This document shows positions 44,611 through 57,375 of a stretch of 64,000 nucleotides of DNA, piece after piece; within the stretch, counting starts at the first letter, position 1; every line of letters begins with the position of its first letter. Source of the stretch: Nocardia sp. BMG51109 (lineage in GTDB: Bacteria > Actinomycetota > Actinomycetes > Mycobacteriales > Mycobacteriaceae); assembly GCF_000526215.1 (NCBI RefSeq), contig NZ_JAFQ01000004.1, positions 7,378,001 to 7,442,000 on the forward strand, given 5' to 3'. The notes beneath the pieces were generated by a model, which was not told where the DNA came from, did no database searches, and saw only the letters and a list, made by a program, of their open reading frames with translations. Both the position numbers and the translations under genes were made by a program.

Positions 44611-45243
44611 TCAGAGCGCGAATCCCGAGTTCAGGCCGCTCATCGCGCGGTCGAGTACGTCGGCCAGATCCTCGCCGGGGCGGTCGAGCCAGTGTTCGTA
44701 ACCGGCCACGGCGACGCCCAGCGCACAGTGCGAAATCACCTGCGGGCGCAGCTCGTTCGCCGCCACGCCCAGCCGGGCGGCGGCGAACTCGGCCACCACA
44801 TCGCGCCACTCCCGATAGCGCAATGTCGAATGCGCTTGCAGCGCGGGTACTTTCAGGATCAGCTCCATCCGCTTGCGATGCCACGGCACCTGCGCGGGAT
44901 CGAAGCGGTTGAACTCGACCACGACGGTGCGCACGGCGTCCATGACCGGCTGCTCCGGCGGGCACCGCGCGAACAGCTCGCGCATGGCCTGCAACTGCTC
45001 GGTGAAGCTGCCCCAGACGACGTCGTTCTTCGACTCGAAGTAGCGGAAGAACGTCCGCTTGCTCACGCCCACCGCCGCGGCGATGCCCTCGACGGTGGTC
45101 TCGTCGAACCCGTCCCGCTCGAACAGCTCGAACGCGGCGCGCTCCAACTCGACGGGGCTGGTCGAGGGCCTGCGACCGGCCCGGCCGCGCACGCCCGGCG
45201 ATTGCCCGGAAGTCACCCCTTCCTTTTTGTCACCCAGTGCCAT
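44611..45243 (-). CDS. mftR: MftR-type TetR regulator of the mycofactocin locus
   Basis: 210 residues from the ATG at 45243. TetR helix-turn-helix about 27-75 (GFDETTVEGIAAAVGVSKRT, then FFRYFESKNDVVW) and a helical ligand domain with the RMELILKVPALQAHSTLRYREW segment typical of the MftR group. It is divergent from mftA with only 50 bp between start codons, so it very likely binds there and controls both directions. In mycobacteria MftR responds to acyl-CoA; that is carried over by family, not seen here. The ribosome-binding site is poor. Confidence 0.87.
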   Translation of the reverse strand: MALGDKKEGVTSGQSPGVRGRAGRRPSTSPVELERAAFELFERDGFDETTVEGIAAAVGVSKRTFFRYFESKNDVVWGSFTEQLQAMRELFARCPPEQPVMDAVRTVVVEFNRFDPAQVPWHRKRMELILKVPALQAHSTLRYREWRDVVAEFAAARLGVAANELRPQVISHCALGVAVAGYEHWLDRPGEDLADVLDRAMSGLNSGFAL

Positions 45244-45293
45244 TATGATGCCGTTCACACCCTGTTTCCCGATCACACCCCGGAGGAGCGATC

Positions 45294-45404
45294 ATGAACG
45301 AATCCGTCACCAGCCAGACAGTAGTCTCCGACGACGCCGCGCTGGTCGAGGACGACCTGCTCGTCGAGGAGGTCTCGATCGATGGCATGTGCGGTGTCTA
45401 CTGA
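45294..45404 (+). CDS. mftA: Mycofactocin precursor peptide
   Basis: 36 residues, too small for routine gene calling but unmistakable: an acidic leader (VEDDLLVEEVSIDG) ending in IDGMCGVY, whose C-terminal Val-Tyr pair becomes the redox cofactor core. The ATG follows GGAGGAG by a few bases. MftC, with MftB as carrier, decarboxylates and cyclises the Val-Tyr end, MftE cleaves it off, MftD oxidises it and MftF adds sugars. mftB overlaps its 3' end in another frame. Confidence 0.97.
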   Translation: MNESVTSQTVVSDDAALVEDDLLVEEVSIDGMCGVY

Positions 45405-45690
45405 CGCCTTCGATCCGGCCGGTTCCTACGCGCTCGCGCCCTCGATCTCGCTACGGCCGGAGCCCTTCGGGGCGCTGGTCTACGACTTCACCACCCGCCG
45501 CCTGTCGTTTCTGAAGACGCCGCAGCTGGTGACCGTGGTGCGAGAGCTGGAGAACCAACCCGACGCGGCCGCCGCCCTGGCGGCCGCGGGGGTGCCGGAC
45601 GACCAACACGGCCGCTACCTGACCGCGCTGGCCGGCCTGCTCGACGCCGGCACCATCCAGCCGCGCACCGACGAACAGGATCCCCGATGA
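45382..45690 (+). CDS. mftB: Mycofactocin RRE chaperone
   Basis: 102 residues at most. A small PqqD-like RiPP recognition element that binds the MftA leader and presents it to MftC; core motif LRPEPFGALVYDFTTRRLSFL. Two starts are plausible: ATG at 45382, nine bases after GAGGAGG, or GTG at 45394. Both lie inside the end of mftA, so translation is coupled. The 3' end overlaps mftC by four bases (ATGA). Confidence 0.93.
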   Translation: MACAVSTDAFDPAGSYALAPSISLRPEPFGALVYDFTTRRLSFLKTPQLVTVVRELENQPDAAAALAAAGVPDDQHGRYLTALAGLLDAGTIQPRTDEQDPR

Positions 45691-46919
45691 AACTCGTCGA
45701 ACACTTCAAACACGGCCTGGACGCGCCGATCTGCCTGACCTGGGAACTCACCTACGCGTGCAACCTGGCCTGCGAGCACTGCCTGTCCTCGTCGGGCCGC
45801 CGCGACCCGCGCGAGCTGTCGACCGAGGAATGCAAGGCGTTCATCGACGACCTCGAGCGCATGCAGGTCTTCTACGTCAACATCGGCGGCGGCGAACCCA
45901 CCGTCCGCAGCGACTTCTGGGAGCTGCTCGACTACGCCGTCGCCCACCACGTCGGAGTCAAGTTCTCCACCAACGGAATCCGGCTCACCCCCGAACGGGC
46001 CCGCAAGCTGGCCGCCACCGACTACGTCGACGTGCAGATCTCCATCGACGGCGCCACCGCCGAGGTGAACGACGCCGTCCGCGGACCCGGCTCGTTCGAC
46101 ACCGCGATGCGCGCCATGCAGAACCTCGCCGACGCCGGCTTCGAGAACTTCAAGATTTCGGTCGTGATGACCCGGCACAACGTCGATCAGCTCGACGAGT
46201 TCAAGGCCATCGCCGACCGCTTCGGCGCGCAGCTGCGCATCACCCGGCTGCGCCCGTCCGGCCGCGGCGCCGACGTCTGGTCCGAGCTGCACCCGACCAC
46301 CGACCAGCAGCTGACGATCTACGACTGGCTGGTCGCCAACGGCGAGGGCGTGCTGACCGGCGACTCGTTCTTCCACCTCAACGCGCTGGGCTCCACTCCC
46401 CTGGCCGGGCTGAACCTGTGCGGCGCCGGGCGGGTGGTGTGCCTGGTCGACCCGGTCGGCGACGTCTACGCCTGCCCGTTCGCCATCCACGACGAGTTCC
46501 TCGCCGGGAACGTGCGTGACACCGGCGGCTTCGAAACCGTCTGGCGCGCATCGGAGTTGTTCGACCGGCTGCGGCAGCCGCAGACCGGCGGCGCCTGCGC
46601 CTCCTGCTCGGCCTACGACGCCTGTCAGGGTGGCTGCATGGCCGCGAAATTCTTCACCGGCCTCCCCCTCGACGGTCCCGACCCCGAATGTGTGCGCGGC
46701 AACGGCGAACTCGCGCTCAGCACCGCCGGCGCCCGCCCCCAGCCGGACAAGGACCACTCCCGCTCCACCGCGGCGAGCCGCAAATCCGACACCGCGGCGA
46801 GCCGCAAATCCGGCACCGCGCCGCGCCGCGCGGTCGCGCTGGGCATGCCCGCGGCGCCCGGCCGCACCACCGCCCCGGACCGCGCCTGCGACACCAGCCC
46901 GCTCGCCGGGCTGCGCTGA
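45687..46919 (+). CDS. mftC: Mycofactocin radical SAM maturase
   Basis: 410 residues. Radical SAM cluster CNLACEHC (Cys 25, 29, 32) and a C-terminal SPASM domain with many cysteines (CGAGRVVCLVD, YACPF, CASCSAYDACQGGC) for auxiliary iron-sulfur clusters. It oxidatively decarboxylates the MftA C-terminal tyrosine and then forms the Val-Tyr ring. After the SPASM cysteines comes a ~60-residue basic, Ala/Pro-rich tail with a near-perfect 24-bp duplication (ASRKSDTA, ASRKSGTA at about 46777-46824), probably disordered. Confidence 0.95.
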   Translation: MKLVEHFKHGLDAPICLTWELTYACNLACEHCLSSSGRRDPRELSTEECKAFIDDLERMQVFYVNIGGGEPTVRSDFWELLDYAVAHHVGVKFSTNGIRLTPERARKLAATDYVDVQISIDGATAEVNDAVRGPGSFDTAMRAMQNLADAGFENFKISVVMTRHNVDQLDEFKAIADRFGAQLRITRLRPSGRGADVWSELHPTTDQQLTIYDWLVANGEGVLTGDSFFHLNALGSTPLAGLNLCGAGRVVCLVDPVGDVYACPFAIHDEFLAGNVRDTGGFETVWRASELFDRLRQPQTGGACASCSAYDACQGGCMAAKFFTGLPLDGPDPECVRGNGELALSTAGARPQPDKDHSRSTAASRKSDTAASRKSGTAPRRAVALGMPAAPGRTTAPDRACDTSPLAGLR

Positions 46920-46947: not shown

Positions 46948-48120
46948 ATGGCAAGTACACGTGACTGGTTCGAATCGGTCGCCGAGGCACAGCGGCGTGC
47001 GAAGAAGCGCGTCCCGAAGGCGGTGTATCTGGCCCTGCTGGCCGGATCGGAGGCCGGCGCGACGCTCGACGACAATGCCGCCGCCTTCGCCGAACTCGGG
47101 CTGCGGCCGCATATCGCCGATCTGCCCGCGACCCGGGATCTGTCGACCACCGTTCTGGGGCAAGAGCTTTCGATGCCGGTGATCTGCTCGCCCACGGGCG
47201 TGCAGGCCGTCGACCCGGACGGCGAGGTCGGGGTGGCGCGCGGCGCGGCGATGTCGGGCACCGCGCTGGGGTTGTCGTCGTTCGGGTCCAAGCCGATCGA
47301 GGACGTCGTCGCCGCCAACGAGAAGACCTTCTTCCAGGTCTACTGGCTCGGCGACAAGGACGCCATGCTCGCCCGGCTGGAGCGGGCCCGCGCCGGCGGC
47401 GCGAAGGGCCTGATCGTCACGCTCGACTGGGTTTTCGCCACCGCCCGCGACTGGGGCAGCCCCGCGCTGCCCGAACGCATCGATGTGAAGACCGCGGCGA
47501 AGTTCGCGCCGCAGGTCATGCTCCGGCCCGGCTGGTTCCTGCGCTACGCCCGCACCGGGAAGCTGCCGGATCTGACCACCCCGAACCTCGTGCCCCGGGG
47601 CGAGCAGGGGCCGACGTTCTTCGGCGCCTACGGCGAATGGATGGGCACCCCGCCGCCCACCTGGGACGATCTGGCCTGGCTGCGGCAGCAGTGGGACGGG
47701 CCGTTCCTGCTCAAGGGAATCGGCCGCCCCGACGACGCCAAGCGGGCCGTCGATATCGGCGCCACCGCCCTCTCGGTATCCAATCACGGTGGTAACAACC
47801 TCGATACGACCCCGGCCACGATCCGCATGCTGCCCAGCGTCGCGGGCGCGGTCGGCGACCAGATCGAGGTTTTGCTCGACGGTGGTGTCCGACGCGGCGG
47901 CGACGTGGTCAAGGCGCTCGCGCTCGGCGCCAAGGCCGTCATGATCGGCCGGCCCTACCTGTGGGGTATGGCCGCCGCCGGTGATCGCGGCGTGCACAAC
48001 GTCCTGGAGGTGCTGCGCCAGGGCATCGACTCGGCCCTCTACGGGCTGGGCCGCGCGTCGGTGCACGATCTGACGCCCGAGGACGTCCTGGTGCCGGACG
48101 GTTTCACCCGGGGCATGTGA
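46948..48120 (+). CDS. mftD: FMN-dependent mycofactocin dehydrogenase
   Basis: 390 residues from the ATG at 46948 after AAGGA. TIM-barrel of the lactate/glycolate oxidase family: FMN-binding and catalytic segments CSPTGVQAVDPDG, SVSNHGGNNLD and LLDGGVRRGGDVVKAL, then MIGRPYLWG. MftD converts the released 3-amino-5-hydroxybenzyl-dimethylpyrrolidinone to premycofactocin. The next gene starts at the following base, so the two are cotranscribed. Confidence 0.95.
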   Translation: MASTRDWFESVAEAQRRAKKRVPKAVYLALLAGSEAGATLDDNAAAFAELGLRPHIADLPATRDLSTTVLGQELSMPVICSPTGVQAVDPDGEVGVARGAAMSGTALGLSSFGSKPIEDVVAANEKTFFQVYWLGDKDAMLARLERARAGGAKGLIVTLDWVFATARDWGSPALPERIDVKTAAKFAPQVMLRPGWFLRYARTGKLPDLTTPNLVPRGEQGPTFFGAYGEWMGTPPPTWDDLAWLRQQWDGPFLLKGIGRPDDAKRAVDIGATALSVSNHGGNNLDTTPATIRMLPSVAGAVGDQIEVLLDGGVRRGGDVVKALALGAKAVMIGRPYLWGMAAAGDRGVHNVLEVLRQGIDSALYGLGRASVHDLTPEDVLVPDGFTRGM

Positions 48121-48909
48121 ATGGACGGCGGACCGGTCGCGGTGGTCACCGGCGCGGCGCGCGGCATCGGCGCCGCCACGGTGCACCGGCTCGCCGCCAC
48201 GGGATGGCGGGTGGTCGCCGTCGACCTCTGCCGCGACGACCCGGACCTCGGCTACCCGCTCGGCACCCGGGCGCAACTGACATCGGTCGCCGCACCGTAC
48301 GGCGGCGCGGTCGTCGATGTCGTCGCCGACGTCCGGGATGCCGAAAGCCTCGGTGCGGCAGTGGCTCTCGCCCATGACACCTTCGGCGGACTGGACGCCG
48401 CGGTGGCGGCCGCCGCGGTGATGACCGGCGGCCGGCCGCTGTGGGAGACCACCACGGCCGACTGGGCGCCGATGTTCGATATCGGCGTGCACGGCATGGC
48501 CAACCTCGCGCGCGCCGCGATCCCGGTCATGCTGCGCCGGCCGGAACCGCGCACCGGCCGCTTCGTCGGGGTGGCCTCGGCCGCCGCACACCACGGCATG
48601 TGGCACCTGTCCGGCTACAACTCCGCCAAACACGCGGTGGTCGGCCTGATCAAGGGCCTGGCCCACGACCTGCGCGGCACCGGAATCACCGCCACGGCGG
48701 TCTCCCCGGGTTCCACCCGTACCGACCTGCTGGCCGAAACCGCCCGCCTCTACGACCTCGCCGACGCCGACGAATTCGCCGAACACCAACTGCTGGACCG
48801 CATTCTCGAACCCGAGGAGGTAGCGGCCGCCATAACCTGGCTGTGCTCCCCCGAATCCGCCGCCGTGACCGGCACCGTCGTCCAGGCCGACGGCGGGTTC
48901 CTGTCATGA
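48121..48909 (+). CDS. Mycofactocin-coupled SDR-family oxidoreductase
   Basis: 262 residues. Short-chain dehydrogenase with TGAARGIGAAT nucleotide motif, a long insertion after the second strand typical of the mycofactocin-associated SDR group, catalytic YNSAK (Tyr-x3-Lys) and a C-terminal AAAITWLCSPESAAVTG element. Such enzymes hold NAD without release and pass electrons to mycofactocin, oxidising alcohols. It lies inside the biosynthetic operon, directly after mftD with zero spacing, so it is probably the dedicated client enzyme. The alcohol substrate is unknown. Confidence 0.9.
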   Translation: MDGGPVAVVTGAARGIGAATVHRLAATGWRVVAVDLCRDDPDLGYPLGTRAQLTSVAAPYGGAVVDVVADVRDAESLGAAVALAHDTFGGLDAAVAAAAVMTGGRPLWETTTADWAPMFDIGVHGMANLARAAIPVMLRRPEPRTGRFVGVASAAAHHGMWHLSGYNSAKHAVVGLIKGLAHDLRGTGITATAVSPGSTRTDLLAETARLYDLADADEFAEHQLLDRILEPEEVAAAITWLCSPESAAVTGTVVQADGGFLS

Positions 48910-49668
48910 CGACGCAGAGGCTCGTGGATCGCCTTGCGGCACCGAAGCCCCGGACCGGCGGGCCCGGAATCCTGCACAGCCACAGGCACTGTCGCGCACA
49001 CCGCCCACGAACTTCTGCCATCACGACTCGCGGACAATCCGATCGCCCGATGCGCCGAAACTCGGAGCTGCCGCCCCCGGGTACCGCCATGGCCGTCAGC
49101 ACTGTCGTACCGGCCGACGCCGGTCCGGCGACGGGCATACCGCTCGACCGCCGCGCCGCAACGGCAACACGTCACGGCCGTAGACACTGCCGCATGCCGG
49201 CTCGACTGCCACAAGCTCTGCCGTGCAAGCCGACTATTGTTGGTTCCCAGTATGACTCGGGTACCGCCCTACCGCCGGTTCCACCGAGCCATCCGACTGC
49301 GCGCCCGAGTCCACCGGCAGCGTCGCACAAGCCGGCAGATGGCTGCCATGACGACCCGGATGCGGCTCGACCGGCGGTACCGCCGGGCCGTGTGTGCCCG
49401 AGTTCGCCGGGGTCACCGACCTCGTCGTACAGGTCGGGCGGTGGCTGCCGTGACTGTTCGGGTGCAGTTCGTCGCCGGTTCCGCCGAGCCATCCGGCCGG
49501 GAGCCCCTGCGTTCACCGAGTTCAGCGGCATTCTCGTACCAGCCGAGAGGAGGCTGCTGTGACTGCTCGGGTCCGGCTTGCTCACCGGTTCCGCCGAACC
49601 ATCCGGCGGAGCGCCCCCGAGCCCGCCGGACCCACCGGCATTCTCGTACAAGCCGGGAGGTGGCTGCC
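48906..49668 (+). repeat. Decaying tandem array of mftF 5'-end copies
   Basis: Units of about 96-110 bp begin at 49252, 49348, 49450 and 49559 and run into the true mftF start at 49669; each unit begins ATGAC or GTGAC followed by an ACTCGGGT-like stretch. Shared blocks include ATGACGACCCGGATGCGGCT (49348) against GTGACTACTCGGGTGCGGCT (mftF), CCGGTTCCGCCGA (49473 and 49584), GGCATTCTCGTAC and GGGAGGTGGCTGCC-type ribosome-binding ends. A poorer copy starts at 48906 at the SDR stop codon (ATGACGACGCAGAGGCTCG); the part between is more decayed. The downstream units are not all the same length modulo three, so this is not one protein repeat. Confidence 0.8.
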
Positions 49669-51000
49669 GTGACTACTCGGGTGCGGCTGGATCGGCGGGT
49701 GCGTCGATTCGATGATGGGCGTGTGGTTCTCGGTGGGTCGCCGATGCGGGTGGTTCGGTTGAGTGGTGCCGGGGCGCGGCGGCTCGGGGAATGGGCCGCG
49801 GGGGCGGTGGTCGGGGAACATCGGTCCGAGCGGGCGCTGTTGCGGCGGATGGTGGAGGCCGGGATCGCTCATCCGGTGGCGGAGGGTAGCTCGTTCGGGC
49901 CGGGCGACGTGACCGTCGTCGTTCCCGTGAAGGACAACCGGCCGGGACTGGAGCGGCTGCTGTCGCGGGTGCACGAGGTGGGGGCGGGCGTGGTCGTGGA
50001 CGACGGGTCGGCCGTGCCCGTAGCGGAAAGCTCTGTCCGTCATGAGGTTTCGCGGGGACCGGCGGCCGCCCGCAATACCGGATGGCGGGTGGCCGGGACT
50101 GCGCTGGTGGCCTTCCTCGACTCGGATACCGTCCCCGACGACGGGTGGCTCGACAACATCCTGCCGTTGTTCGGCGATTCCGGCGTGGCGGCGGTGGCAC
50201 CGCGCATCGTGTCGACCGGCCGGGGTGTCATCGGGCGGTACGAGGCCGATCGCGGAAGTCTGGATATGGGTGGCGATCCCGCCGACGTCCGGCCCGACGG
50301 GCAGGTCCGCTACGTGCCCAGTGCGGCGCTGGTGATACGTCGCGAGGCGCTCGAGGCGGTGGGCGGCTTCGACGAACGACTCCGCTTCGGCGAGGACGTC
50401 GATCTGGTCTGGCGGCTCATCGATGCCGGGTTCTCCGTTCGGTACCAACCCGATTCGATCGTCCGGCACGAAACCAGGCCGACGCTCGGCGGGTGGCTGC
50501 GGCAGCGCTTCGACTACGGCACCTCGGCCGCACCGCTGGCGGTGCGCCATCCCGGCATGCTCGCCTGTGCGCGGATCCCCCGGCCCTTCCTCGCCCAGTG
50601 CGCCTTGGCCTCGGCCGGAAAACCCGGCCTGGCGCTCGCCGCCGCGGCCGTCGCCGGTGGGCAGTCCGCAATGCGGTTGCGACGCAGCGGTATTCCGCTA
50701 CCGGACGCCGCCGGTGTCGCGGCGACCGCGCAGCTCCGGTTCGCCGGTCGGCTGGGCGTCGCCGTGCGCACGCTGTGGTGGGCGCCGGCCCTCGTGCACC
50801 GCCGCACAAGGCGATTCGTGGCCCTGTCGTTCGCACCGATCGCCGCGGCGGGCCTGATTCGTGGCGGTGTGCGATGGACGGTGCTGCGCCTGCTCGACGA
50901 CCTGGCCTACGGAGCCGGCGTCTGGGCCGGCTGCCTGCGCCATCGGAGCGCGGAGCCGCTACTGCCCGCCGTAGGCCCGCACCGCCGAGCAGCACGATGA
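49669..51000 (+). CDS. mftF: Mycofactocin glycosyltransferase
   Basis: 443 residues from a GTG at 49669, eight bases after GGGAGG. After an N-terminal ~80-residue RRE-like/linker region comes a family 2 glycosyltransferase (VTVVVPVKDN, VVDDGS, FLDSDTVPDDGW with the DxD-type motif, FGEDVDLVWRL). The C-terminus has hydrophobic helices, so it is probably membrane-attached. In mycobacteria MftF adds a glucose oligomer to premycofactocin. The frame is open upstream to 48934, but that segment is the repeat array, not family sequence. It overlaps mftE by four bases (ATGA). Confidence 0.93.
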   Translation: MTTRVRLDRRVRRFDDGRVVLGGSPMRVVRLSGAGARRLGEWAAGAVVGEHRSERALLRRMVEAGIAHPVAEGSSFGPGDVTVVVPVKDNRPGLERLLSRVHEVGAGVVVDDGSAVPVAESSVRHEVSRGPAAARNTGWRVAGTALVAFLDSDTVPDDGWLDNILPLFGDSGVAAVAPRIVSTGRGVIGRYEADRGSLDMGGDPADVRPDGQVRYVPSAALVIRREALEAVGGFDERLRFGEDVDLVWRLIDAGFSVRYQPDSIVRHETRPTLGGWLRQRFDYGTSAAPLAVRHPGMLACARIPRPFLAQCALASAGKPGLALAAAAVAGGQSAMRLRRSGIPLPDAAGVAATAQLRFAGRLGVAVRTLWWAPALVHRRTRRFVALSFAPIAAAGLIRGGVRWTVLRLLDDLAYGAGVWAGCLRHRSAEPLLPAVGPHRRAAR

Positions 51001-51665
51001 ACCTCGGCGACCTGCGATCACCCGAGTTCGCCGACCGGATCGGCCGGACGGTACTCGCCGTACCGCTCGGCGCCACCGAACAGCACGGCCCGCATCTGCC
51101 CCTGCGCACCGACACCGCCGTCGCCGCCGAACTGTGCCGCCGGCTGGCCGAACGATGCCCGGATATCGTTGTCGCACCGGCGATTCCGTACGGCGCCAGC
51201 GGCGAGCACGCCGGCTTCCCGGGCACCCTGTCGATCGGTCACCGTGCGCTCGAACTCCTCCTCGTCGAACTCGTCCGCTCCGCCGACGATTTCGCCGGCG
51301 TCGTCCTGGTCAACGGGCACGGCGGAAATCTCCAGGCCCTGCGCTCCGCCCAGCGCCTCCTGACCGCCGAACAGCGCCCGCCCCTGATCTGGTCCCCCAC
51401 CGGCTCCGCCGGCGACAGCCACGCCGGGCACACCGAAACCTCGGTCATGCTGTGCCTCGACGACAGCATCGACCTGAGCACGGCCTCCCCCGGAAACACC
51501 CGCCCCCTCTCCGAGATCATGCCGGCACTCCGCGAACGCGGGGTATCCGCCGTGAGCCCCAACGGAGTCCTGGGCGACCCGACCCAGGCCGACCCCGCCG
51601 AAGGCGAGAAGATCCTGGAGCGCTGGACGGAATCCCTGGTAGCCGCTGTCGCGGAACGGTTCTGA
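50997..51665 (+). CDS. mftE: Mycofactocin precursor peptidase (creatininase family)
   Basis: 222 residues. Creatinine-amidohydrolase fold with metal-binding LGATEQHGPHLPLRTD, EHAGFPGTLS, NGHGGN and the later GHTETS glutamate. It releases the modified Val-Tyr dipeptide-derived core from MftA. The ATG overlaps the mftF stop codon, so translation is coupled. It is the last gene of the operon; here mftF precedes mftE, the reverse of the M. tuberculosis order. Confidence 0.94.
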   Translation: MNLGDLRSPEFADRIGRTVLAVPLGATEQHGPHLPLRTDTAVAAELCRRLAERCPDIVVAPAIPYGASGEHAGFPGTLSIGHRALELLLVELVRSADDFAGVVLVNGHGGNLQALRSAQRLLTAEQRPPLIWSPTGSAGDSHAGHTETSVMLCLDDSIDLSTASPGNTRPLSEIMPALRERGVSAVSPNGVLGDPTQADPAEGEKILERWTESLVAAVAERF

Positions 51666-54021: not shown

Positions 54022-54366
54022 TGGGTCCTCCTTGCTCCTGACGTGTCCTGAATCTGCTGCGCGACAGACGGTATCGGGAGCGCACGGCACAGACGAGACG
54101 AGAGCCCGCCGCACCCGGCGCCCGCGATCGGATCGGCCGCCCCGCCGGTGGTCGGAGCGCTGCGCGAATGCGGCGGTCACCGGCGACCGAGACGCGCTCT
54201 CATCTTGCGCCGATGCGCGACCGGTCCGGACACATCCGGGTCCCCGTTCGGCGGGCGCGGCGGCCGGTATCGAGCTACCGTAGAGCGATCAGTGGCAGAG
54301 GGCAGGGGGCCCGAGCAGTGGCAGCAGGGGCAGAGGGCAGGGGGCCGACGAGCCGATGAGTGCCGG

Positions 54367-57300
54367 ATGAGCGACAAAGGGTCTCGCTCGTGTGACCCGG
54401 GGTGCGCGAGACGCATCCGAGACAGCCTCGTTCATCGGCCCGGCGGCGCCGAGAAACTGCCCGCCGACGACCCGCCCGCCGACCTGCTGCACACCGTCGC
54501 CGAGGAGATCGCGGTGCACTGCGGTCACACGATGATCAAGGCCAGCCGGCTCGCCCGCGGCTGGACGGTCGCCGAGGCGGTGGAGGAGTTCCACCGCATG
54601 TGCCGGCGCGAGAACCTCGGGCCGCGCGGGCTCGTCTCCCGTTCCTGGATGGAATGGGAGGCGGGATCGCGGCCCAGCTGGGACTATCAGGACCTGCTGT
54701 CGCGCCTGTTCCGCACCAACCCCGTGCATCTCGGCTGGGCACCCGACTACGCCCCGCCCGCCCGCGCGGCCGCCCCGGCACAGGACCGCAGCGCGGGCCG
54801 GGCGCCGAGGCATCTCCCGCCCGACACCAGCGATTTCACCGGCCGCGACGACCAGGTCGCGGAGCTGGTGGATCTGCTGGGCCGCACGCCCGGCACCGCC
54901 GTACCGCTCGCCGCCGTGTCCGGCAAACCCGGTGTGGGCAAGACGGCGCTGGCCGTCCATGTCGGCCATCGGCTCCGCGACGTGTTCCACGAGGGACAGC
55001 TGTACGCGAATCTGCGTGGTACCGACGCCGATCCGGCCGACGCCGGCGAGATCCTCGCCGGGTTCCTGCGTGAGCTCGGTGTCGAGAGCGCCGCGATCCC
55101 CGGCGACACCGAGGAACGCGCGCGCATGTACCGCACCCGCCTGTCCGGCCGCCGGGTGCTGGTCGTGCTGGACAATGCCGCCGACGAGACCCAGCTGCGC
55201 CCGCTGCTGCCCGGAACCGCCGGCTGCGCCGTCCTCGCCACCAGCCGCACGCCGCTGGCCGCGCTGCCCGGCACACACCGCACGCTCGACGTCCTGCCCG
55301 ACGGCCAGGCCGTCGAGTTGCTGACCACACTGATCGGATACCGGCGCGCGCGAGCGGAATCCAGTGCGGTGCGCGAGGTGGTCCGCCTGTGCGGCGCGCT
55401 GCCGCTGGCGCTGCGGATCGCCGGGGCACGGCTGCTGTCGCGTCCGGGCTGGAGCGTGTCGTGGTTCGCCGACCGCCTGACCGACGAGAGCCACCGGCTG
55501 GACCTGCTCACCGCCGGCGATCTCGAGGTGCGGGCCTCGTTCGCACTCGGCTACCGCAGCCGCAACGAGGGCGAGCGGGCGGCGTTCCGGATGCTGGCGC
55601 TGACCGCCTCCAGCTTCCCCGCCTGGAATCTCGCCGCCCTGCTCGATATCGACCCGCACCGCGCCGAACACCTGCTCGAGGGCCTGGTCGACGCGCAGCT
55701 CGTGGAGCCCGCCGGCGCCGACGCGACCGGTATGCCCCGGTACCGGCTGCACGACCTGGTCCGCGATTTCGCCCGCGAATGCTCGGCCGCCGACGATCCG
55801 CCCGAGGTGCGCCGAGCAGCCGCGCGGCGGCTCGTCGACGAATACCTCGGCGCCGTGCGCGTCGCCTCGGCCACACTGTCCGGCGGCACGGACGAGGCAT
55901 ATCCGTCCATCCACGCCTACAAGGCATATCCGTCCATCGACGCGGACGGGGCTCATCCATTCGGCGGCGCGGACATGGCTCGTCCATTCGGCGGCGCGAA
56001 CGGGGCTCAACCGTTCGGCGGCGCGGCGAATCCGGCCGCCCTGGCCCGCGCGCATCCGCACCGGTGGCTGGCGGCCGAGCAGCGCAATCTCCTTGCGGCC
56101 GTGGAACTCGCGCACGACCTCGGGCTGTGGAGCCGGACCAGGCAACTGGCCGCGACACTGCCGGTGCTGGTCGGCCCGGCCGGCGCCACTCACCCCGCCG
56201 CGACCGGGCAGGCACACACCGAGCAGGCACACACCGAGCAGGCACACACCGAGCAGGCACACACCGAGGCCGCCGCCCTCCGCAGCCTGGGCACGCTGCA
56301 CCGTCGGCTGGGCCGCTTCGATGACGCCGCCGCGATGCTGACCGGTGCCGCGGAGGTGTTCCGGCACCTCGACGAGGACCGTCAATGGGCCACGGCGATG
56401 CGGAGTCTGGGCGACACCCGCCGCTGTCAGGGTCGCCTCGACGAGGCCGTCGACGCGTTCTCCACCGCGCTGCCGATAGCGCGCCGCGAGCGGAATCCGC
56501 GCCTGGTCGCGAAGGTGCTGAACGGGCTCGGCGACGCCGACCGCGGACTGTCCCGCTGGGACGACGCCACCCGCTGTTTCGAGGAGAGCCTGGCGATCCA
56601 TCGCGAACTCGGCGACCGCCTCGGCGAGGCCCGGACCCTGCTGCGGTTCGGGCAGGTTCATCGCGACCGGTGGGACAACGACCGGGCAACGCGCATGTTC
56701 GAGGACGCCCTGGGCGTCTTCACCGATCTCGACGACCAGCGGTGGCAGGCACGGGCGCTGCGCCAGATCGCCGTGGTGCACCGCAACGAAGGCGCCGACG
56801 GCCGCGCGTTCGAGACCTTCGAGCAGGCCCTGGCGCTGTTCGATCGGCTCGGCGACCGCCGCGGCACCGCGGTCACCCTGCGCAACCGGGGCGACGCGCA
56901 CCGCTTGGCGGGCCACGAGTCGCGGGCCGCGTCGGATATCGAACGCGCGCAACGCCTCTTCGAATCCCTCGACGATCGCCGCTGGGTCGCCCGCTGCCTG
57001 CTGAGCCTGGCCGATCTCGACCGCGCCGGCGAGCGATACGGTCCGGCGCAGGACCGCGTCGACGCCGCCCTGGACATCGTGTTCCGCACCCGCGGCGATC
57101 GTCCCGCGCGCGGCCGGGCGCTGCGGCAGCTGGGTTTACTGGCCAGGGACCGCGGCGACTTCGTGGCCGCCGCGGCCGCACTCGCCCACGCGCACACCCT
57201 CTTCGCGGATCTCGGTGACACGCTGTGGATCGCGCGCGTGCAGGCCGGCCAGGCCCGGCTGACCGAGCGGCGCGGCGAGGATCCGGCACCGGAGCTGAAG

Positions 57301-57375
57301 GAGGCGATCGAGATCTGCCACCGCCACGGCATCGGCGAGCCCGGCCGGGTCGAACGGGTCCTGCGGGAGTGGTGA
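54367..57375 (+). CDS. XRE/NB-ARC/TPR regulatory ATPase
   Basis: 1002 residues from the ATG at 54367; the ribosome-binding site is weak. N-terminal ~35-125 is helical and XRE-like. The NB-ARC domain follows from about 160 with FTGRDDQ, Walker A GKPGVGKTAL and Walker B RRVLVVLDNA, then a winged region to ~500. The C-terminal half (about 630-1000) is a superhelix of TPR units. The layout is that of AfsR-like STAND regulators without a SARP domain. Two in-frame tandem repeat arrays lie between NB-ARC and TPR (27 bp x5 and 15 bp x4). It is divergent from the P450 gene, a plausible target. Confidence 0.87.
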   Translation: MSDKGSRSCDPGCARRIRDSLVHRPGGAEKLPADDPPADLLHTVAEEIAVHCGHTMIKASRLARGWTVAEAVEEFHRMCRRENLGPRGLVSRSWMEWEAGSRPSWDYQDLLSRLFRTNPVHLGWAPDYAPPARAAAPAQDRSAGRAPRHLPPDTSDFTGRDDQVAELVDLLGRTPGTAVPLAAVSGKPGVGKTALAVHVGHRLRDVFHEGQLYANLRGTDADPADAGEILAGFLRELGVESAAIPGDTEERARMYRTRLSGRRVLVVLDNAADETQLRPLLPGTAGCAVLATSRTPLAALPGTHRTLDVLPDGQAVELLTTLIGYRRARAESSAVREVVRLCGALPLALRIAGARLLSRPGWSVSWFADRLTDESHRLDLLTAGDLEVRASFALGYRSRNEGERAAFRMLALTASSFPAWNLAALLDIDPHRAEHLLEGLVDAQLVEPAGADATGMPRYRLHDLVRDFARECSAADDPPEVRRAAARRLVDEYLGAVRVASATLSGGTDEAYPSIHAYKAYPSIDADGAHPFGGADMARPFGGANGAQPFGGAANPAALARAHPHRWLAAEQRNLLAAVELAHDLGLWSRTRQLAATLPVLVGPAGATHPAATGQAHTEQAHTEQAHTEQAHTEAAALRSLGTLHRRLGRFDDAAAMLTGAAEVFRHLDEDRQWATAMRSLGDTRRCQGRLDEAVDAFSTALPIARRERNPRLVAKVLNGLGDADRGLSRWDDATRCFEESLAIHRELGDRLGEARTLLRFGQVHRDRWDNDRATRMFEDALGVFTDLDDQRWQARALRQIAVVHRNEGADGRAFETFEQALALFDRLGDRRGTAVTLRNRGDAHRLAGHESRAASDIERAQRLFESLDDRRWVARCLLSLADLDRAGERYGPAQDRVDAALDIVFRTRGDRPARGRALRQLGLLARDRGDFVAAAAALAHAHTLFADLGDTLWIARVQAGQARLTERRGEDPAPELKEAIEICHRHGIGEPGRVERVLREW
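55896..56030 (+). repeat. Five 27-bp in-frame tandem repeats
   Basis: Units start at 55896, 55923, 55950, 55977 and 56004. Each encodes nine residues of the type A-x-P-(S/F)-x. Copies 1-2 start GGCATATCCGTCCATC, and copies 3-5 have GGCTCATCC or similar followed by (A/G)TTCGGCGGCGCG, so two sub-types are joined. They lie in the linker between the NB-ARC and TPR parts. Confidence 0.92.
56209..56268 (+). repeat. Four perfect 15-bp in-frame tandem repeats
   Basis: CAGGCACACACCGAG occurs four times without a mismatch (56209, 56224, 56239, 56254), encoding QAHTE four times, just before the TPR region. Confidence 0.97.

Follow-up and report, generated by a model that had tools for sequence, protein, structure and literature searches.

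A decaying tandem array of the SDR-mftF junction in a Nocardia mycofactocin operon, and a plausible relay of ribosomes across it

The window analysed here, a stretch of 64 000 nucleotides from the 8.79 Mb genome of Nocardia sp. BMG51109, contains a mycofactocin operon that shares its genes and their order with other operons of this kind, but differs from them in a wide gap of 759 bp between the gene encoding the SDR family oxidoreductase and mftF. This raises the question of where the inserted sequence came from and how ribosomes may still be brought to mftF across it. The gene order is mftR (on the minus strand), mftA, mftB, mftC, mftD, SDR, the array described below, mftF and mftE. MftB, MftC, MftD, MftF, MftR and the SDR passed their NCBIfam cut-offs, while the gene that we take to be mftA was assigned from its C-terminal residues, and the mftE-like gene is presumably mftE, judging from its position in the operon.

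44611..45276, minus strand: mftR, regulator (TIGR03968, 261 bits; cut-off 224.9)
45294..45404, plus strand: presumed mftA, precursor; translation ends in IDGMCGVY, by eye
45382..45690, plus strand: mftB (TIGR03967, 109.7 bits; cut-off 33); start uncertain
45687..46919, plus strand: mftC (TIGR03962, 649 bits; cut-off 265); ATGA overlap with mftB
46948..48120, plus strand: mftD (TIGR03966, 698 bits; cut-off 470.85)
48121..48909, plus strand: mycofactocin-coupled SDR family oxidoreductase (TIGR04504, 394.6 bits; cut-off 250)
49669..51000, plus strand: mftF, glycosyltransferase MftF, GTG start (TIGR03965, 418 bits; cut-off 280)
50997..51665, plus strand: mftE-like gene, 3' of mftF; ATGA overlap with mftF

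Tandem repeats also occur within reading frames of the window. The mftC product extends about 69 amino acids past the C-terminal end of the family model, and this extension includes a 24-bp tandem repeat (TAASRKSD; 46766-46829). An ORF at 54148-57375, by eye resembling an NB-ARC/TPR regulator, contains 27-bp and 15-bp tandem repeats at 55878-56268, with both periods being multiples of 3.

The initial annotation, made from the sequence, described the gap as a fading tandem array of the mftF start region together with its ribosome-binding site. The presence of a tandem array was confirmed by Tandem Repeats Finder (49425-49688; period 110, 2.4 copies, 78% matches, score 311), by a repeat-family search that recovered three to four copies per family at spacings of 102, 109 and 110 bp, and by comparison of a junction profile with shuffled sequence. 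The start codons of the spaced copies, as read from the sequence, are located at 49348, 49450, 49559 and 49669. The unit does include the mftF start, as had been claimed, but it is not restricted to it: the unit head resembles the mftF start, while the unit tail resembles the SDR end (...GGCATTCTCGTACAAGCCGGGAGGTGGCTGCC against ...GGCACCGTCGTCCAGGCCGACGGCGGGTTCCTGTC), and this homology identifies the last ~65 bp of the SDR gene as the source of the tails. Consistently, the insert matched both sides of the junction at its own locus, the SDR tail (P 0.002) and the mftF head (P 0.006).

The junction profile HMM was built from 26 distinct SDR-mftF junctions of relatives, in which the two genes touch or nearly so, with the window sequence excluded. 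On the plus strand of 48600-50000, at E <= 1000, it gave eight matches, corresponding to the SDR end, the mftF start and six sites in between (match starts at 48840, 48964, 49091, 49203, 49312, 49390, 49517 and 49612); the true SDR end scored highest, with 53.4 bits, and the match at 49517 lowest, with -0.5 bits. Within 48910-49668, five matches scored at least 3 bits, whereas 1000 dinucleotide shuffles of this stretch averaged 0.023 such matches and never had more than one. The summed score of 36.3 bits exceeded the highest shuffle value, 10.1, and whichever of six thresholds was applied, no shuffle reached the real number of matches. Among 165 other 759-bp tiles of the window, taken on both strands, each contained at most one match of at least 3 bits. 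The whole gap consists of about seven diverged tandem copies (96-126 bp) of the SDR-end/mftF-start junction, and the first base of the array, 48906, already lies within the stop codon of the SDR gene. The unit reported at 49252 and the fading earlier ones were all recovered by the profile. The boundaries at 49022 and 49126 were set by eye.

48906..49021, plus strand: unit 1, 116 bp; profile matches 48840-48916 and 48964-49001; opens with ATGA in the SDR stop, tail junction decayed (ATG gone), end approximate
49022..49125, plus strand: unit 2, about 104 bp; profile match 49091-49123; start codon decayed, boundaries approximate
49126..49251, plus strand: unit 3, about 126 bp; profile match 49203-49261; start codon decayed, start approximate
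49252..49347, plus strand: unit 4, 96 bp, ATG start; profile match 49312-49370
49348..49449, plus strand: unit 5, 102 bp, ATG start; head MTTRMRLDRRYRR, resembling the MftF N-terminus
49450..49558, plus strand: unit 6, 109 bp, GTG start, SD -10.3 kcal/mol; its tail junction is the weakest profile match (49517-49546, -0.5 bits)
49559..49668, plus strand: unit 7, 110 bp, GTG start, SD -14.8 kcal/mol

Modules of a ribosome-binding site and a start survive at several units, with start codons kept at 48906, 49252, 49348, 49450, 49559 and 49669, but the start codons at about 49022 and 49126 have been lost. Units 4-7 are 0.69-0.83 identical among themselves (z 8.5-14.6), differing at about 17-31% of aligned positions, with unit 4 matching units 5-7 at 0.74-0.83 (z 8.6-11.0). 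Pairs involving units 1-3 are weaker (z 1.4-5.2), and the recognition of these units therefore rests mainly on the profile. Whether the SD/NTGA core is better conserved among the units than the remainder was also considered; NTGA was conserved at 0.85-1.0 and the SD at 0.57-0.76, but the unit tail reached 0.54-0.70, so that the core is not clearly special.

In its own genome, the array had a single match at E <= 0.001, namely itself (40 of 211 first-pass candidates were scored). None of the DNA matches listed for 150 genomes of the genus extends into the array by more than ~17 bases, and no close relative of the locus was found among them. Among the matches listed, the closest full-length MftF in a 148-genome sample of the genus had at most 57% identity, a partial match (genome G002) had 62%, the nearest MftF was that of Nocardia sp. 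NPDC004860 (64%), and in several genomes of the genus the best SDR match was on another contig or far from mftF. A surface-level literature search turned up no description of an array of this kind in mycofactocin operons. The array very likely arose by tandem duplication of a coupled junction, and the earlier suggestion of decayed slippage holds with respect to such an origin.

The ancestral arrangement is indicated by relatives. In a first pass, 37 of 45 distinct loci had an in-frame mftF start within the SDR stop codon. For Pseudonocardiaceae, 89 mftF regions were taken and 17 that lacked an SDR within 1.6 kb were left out; 68 of the remaining 72 were direct and four had a relay, i.e. a path of overlapping stops and starts leading from the SDR to mftF. 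The union of both sets, a sample of best matches in which several hops were allowed, comprised 91 deduplicated loci, of which 81 were direct, seven had a relay, one had no relay and two lacked NTGA. All 81 direct loci exhibit the -4 overlap (51 ATGA, 28 GTGA and 2 TTGA), where 'direct' denotes an in-frame NTG at the SDR stop, which is the sole start candidate in 48 of them, while a later start is possible in the rest. One direct locus (L067) carries a 69-base in-frame insert; its mftF may start at the SDR stop, in which case the protein would be 23 residues longer, or at a second GTG, which has a strong SD. Apart from the window, only L086 of the remaining 90 loci has a longer SDR-mftF gap (1199 bp, no NTGA), with the next largest being 271 bp. 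The layout of the direct junction is that of gene pairs with -4 overlaps that undergo termination-reinitiation (PMC10666635); the window differs in that the junction has been multiplied and is bridged by relay ORFs, through which alone the -4 overlap is found there.

Although the insert breaks the direct adjacency of the two genes, an unbroken stop/start path leads from the SDR through ATGA, 218 codons, GTGA, 37 codons and GTGA to mftF.

48906..49562, plus strand: relay ORF 1; ATG in the SDR stop (ATGA), 218 codons; TGA at 49560-49562 overlaps GTG 49559
49559..49672, plus strand: relay ORF 2; 37 codons; TGA at 49670-49672 overlaps the mftF GTG at 49669 (GTGA)

Relay ORF 2 is an mftF-like start fused to an SDR-like end, and unit 7 is the sole complete single-unit ORF of the chain; the starts at 49252, 49348 and 49450 sit in the mftF frame, outside the relay. 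Of 5000 shuffled versions of the insert, 184 retained the chain, and 44 did so when an SD was required at each inner restart. Nevertheless, the relay of the window carries little weight by itself, as four of the array's five stops are inherited junction TGAs. Selection against stops was also considered and rejected: the five stops contrast with a dinucleotide-shuffle mean of 11.4, but are close to the average of 5.5 in 32 tiles of sense coding sequence from the same operon, and the array thus gives no sign of such selection. A conserved protein encoded in the array was rejected as well: the 218-aa product of relay ORF 1 had no protein homologue at E <= 10 among 2387 candidates, and the GC content by codon position is flat in the array (0.70/0.71/0.69, compared with 0.76/0.55/0.88 in the SDR gene), which argues that the relay ORFs are not conserved proteins.

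Stronger evidence for a relay comes from a comparison of insertions at this junction. A relay is kept in seven loci representing six insertion events, including the window, distributed over Nocardia (two), Prauserella, the genus of Amycolatopsis taiwanensis (two) and Streptomyces. The loci other than the window are as follows.

N. alni: relay of 26 codons
Prauserella flavalba and one genome of its genus (L050, L167): relay of 44 codons, counted as one event
Amycolatopsis taiwanensis: relay of 34 + 41 codons
Streptomyces: relay of 23 codons
Second genome in the genus of A. taiwanensis: relay of 93 codons

In the scan of the 91 loci a relay was allowed to end at any in-frame mftF start candidate, and L066, which appeared broken under a one-hop test, has a two-hop relay once several hops are allowed. 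In L078 (Protofrankia coriariae), with a 238-bp gap containing an N and an ambiguous mftF start, no relay was found; L067 was not counted among the relay events. Under a random-phase shuffle null, which was devised after the pattern had been seen and which assumed a chance of 0.25 for L078, the probability of at least six of eight events was 0.0014, and that of at least six of seven, without the N-containing L078, was 0.0003. With length fixed, shuffled short inserts give single-hop relays of the observed lengths in 56-89% of cases; since such inserts are often open, most of the relay evidence is a matter of phase.

Pairwise comparison (28 pairs, 200 shuffles each) revealed no resemblance among the inserts of the six relay events other than that between the two Prauserella copies, L050 and L167; a weak match between the inserts of L006 (N. 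alni) and L067 (score 24 against 15.5) indicates that these two may be related. Duplication of the junction was not clear in any of the other species' inserts, judging by P values against the own SDR tail and own mftF head, respectively (L006, 0.056 and 0.978; L072, 0.080 and 0.966; L187, 0.212 and 0.898; L066, 0.386 and 0.274; L050, 0.290 and 0.982; L167, 0.654 and 0.410; L067, 0.036 and 0.968), and own-junction likeness is clear in the window alone. The Prauserella insert, on the other hand, is composed of a 21-bp tandem unit, a dispersed genomic repeat that differs between species; as its length is divisible by 3, the frame of the relay is preserved. One 15-mer of it has 128 exact copies in genome G661 and five in G660, while a variant 15-mer has 12 in G660, one in G661 and 27 in G662; neither occurs in the genome of the window. 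The origins of the inserts differ between the window and Prauserella, and different DNA has therefore reached the same relay form.

Initiation signals were compared using SD energies calculated with an anti-SD sequence that we assume to be the appropriate one. The SD at the mftF start of the window has an energy of -14.8 kcal/mol, while those at 49252, 49348 and 49450 have -2.7, -3.5 and -10.3 kcal/mol. At the mftF starts of eight insert loci the values range from -9.5 to -17.5 kcal/mol, compared with -3.4 to -11.3 kcal/mol (mean -8.4) in 26 direct loci, and in six of the eight (all except L066 and L006) the SD is stronger than in every direct locus. This fits a release of the SD from the constraint of coding for the SDR; a stronger SD would help restart and independent initiation equally. 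In fold predictions, the mftF SD is 82% paired locally, compared with 45-50% at the SDR, mftC and mftD, and the paired fractions of the array junction SDs are 72% (J1), 66% (J4), 53% (J5), 99% (J6) and 68% (J7). The predicted pairing at mftF would fit a need for a translating ribosome, but the SDs of J1, J6 and J7 are also largely paired, and pairing is thus not special to mftF.

Taken together, the array most likely stems from tandem duplication of a junction with translational coupling, is now decaying, and is tolerable in the operon as ribosomes can still be relayed through it. A relay of ribosomes as its present effect is plausible, with a probability of roughly 0.6. With respect to effect, the earlier proposal of a leader made up of multiple small ORFs is the favoured one: the path is present in the sequence, and ribosomes would make use of it. 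A different and less likely reading is that slippage or unequal recombination generated copies that have no present role, that mftF is translated independently and that the relay arose by chance in GC-rich DNA. The flat codon-position GC, the 218-aa ORF without a homologue, the ordinary number of stops, the strong mftF SD and the ease with which short inserts of the right phase open all agree with such neutral decay, and independent initiation at mftF may indeed suffice. Against it stands the retention of a relay in six insertion events from several genera, at a junction where direct overlap is otherwise the rule.

The remaining alternatives concern the gene product or its amount, and variation in the N-terminus or dosage of MftF had been raised in the initial annotation. 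The starts at 49252, 49348 and 49450 might yield forms of MftF with repeat-encoded N-terminal extensions, given that the mftF frame is free of stops from 48910, immediately after the SDR stop, and that the GTG at 49450 has a considerable SD; yet the SDs at 49252 and 49348 are weak and the mftF frame shows no codon-position signature within the array. MftF comprises 443 aa from GTG 49669, and the family alignment (TIGR03965) opens at residue 5, which argues against N-terminal extensions as a trait of the family; the homologue P0002, which starts MTTRIRLDRRVRRF, together with the family model supports GTG 49669 as the start. Moreover, the matches listed for the 688-aa extended frame (120 of 5559) cover 60-65% of its length, a portion equal in size to MftF proper. 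Such variation is accordingly regarded as very improbable. The database copy of the MftF of the window (P0001, 418 aa) begins at an internal ATG (window 49669-49744). Marginally less probable still is a variable number of units that tunes the level of MftF between strains in the manner of a VNTR locus. Tandem units of 102-110 bp near mftF would be suited to this, and PMC2734929 offers a precedent, reporting for M. tuberculosis that fpg1 mRNA levels correlate with the length of the tandem repeats ahead of the gene, but the divergence of units 4-7 argues against frequent slippage or recombination at present. The least probable reading places a promoter, a terminator or a structured RNA that governs mftF within the array; the 759-bp gap in an otherwise tight operon and the local structure over the mftF SD are in its favour, whereas the sequence is already accounted for as junction copies. 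A simple consensus scan limited to sigma-70-like promoters and terminators found neither in the array, and no Rfam family was found there (best 17.9 bits; gathering score 45).

The duplication of a coupled junction could have proceeded as follows. In the ancestor, as relatives suggest, the SDR gene and mftF would have shared four bases (NTGA), and the 3' end of the SDR gene would have contained the ribosome-binding site of mftF. A segment of ~110 bp spanning this junction would then have been tandemly duplicated repeatedly, moving mftF 759 bp from the SDR stop, with the latest duplications presumably being those near mftF, where the units are most alike. Most copies would have decayed, but a relay could survive, as the stop/start overlap was copied along with each duplication. 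A ribosome terminating on the SDR gene would restart in ATGA, translate 218 codons, restart at GTGA, translate 37 codons and reach mftF at its GTGA. The relay peptides would have no function of their own, and their translation would both bring ribosomes to mftF and open the mRNA at its largely paired ribosome-binding site. Insertions at the junction may be tolerated mainly if a relay is rebuilt, which the six insertion events support without proving it. Because duplication of an NTGA junction copies a stop, a start and a ribosome-binding site together, a gap could reach hundreds of base pairs while ribosomes would still be passed on via throw-away ORFs.

Two close parallels are found in mycobacteria. 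MIRUs, for which Supply 1997 is reportedly the primary paper, are dispersed and seemingly mobile, whereas the array occupies one genomic site at the search threshold and derives from its own junction. They are described in PMC12548453 as short repeats in operon gaps with an ORF coupled to its neighbour by a -4 overlap. Small ORFs with -4 overlaps are present in the array (ATGA 48906, GTGA 49559 and GTGA 49669). The array is tandem and intergenic, but its units measure 96-126 bp, with a size range of about 40-100 bp given for MIRUs in PMC2734929. By analogy, the array may work like mycobacterial MIRUs, without their dispersal. According to PMC2734929, the rnc-fpg1 gap is filled with repeats in the M. 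tuberculosis complex and amounts to a few bp in most other mycobacteria, and longer repeats are linked to more fpg1 mRNA. There, as in the array, a gap of a few bp has grown, to 279-358 bp of direct repeats before a gene start (VNTR3239/ETR-F), but those repeats vary in number between isolates, whereas the array of the window is diverged and built from the ends of the flanking genes.

These observations suggest a possible source of MIRU-like coupling elements. It is tentatively proposed that tandem duplication of an NTGA junction provides a self-made route to such relay elements and that evolution mostly rejects relay-breaking inserts, whatever their sequence. If this is true, the SDR-mftF junction would constitute a natural experiment, with junction copies in Nocardia, a dispersed 21-bp repeat in Prauserella and inserts of unrecognised origin elsewhere, and a simple rule would follow, namely that inserts in overlapping gene pairs survive if a stop/start relay is rebuilt. 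The finding also has a bearing on the dispute presented in PMC10666635, in which scanning of long gaps by ribosomes is set against a need for overlaps; that source reports that coupling in E. coli and Haloferax is almost abolished by gaps of ~20 nt. For annotation, it serves as a warning that relay ORFs may mimic genes or N-terminal extensions, and the database copy of MftF is called from an internal start.
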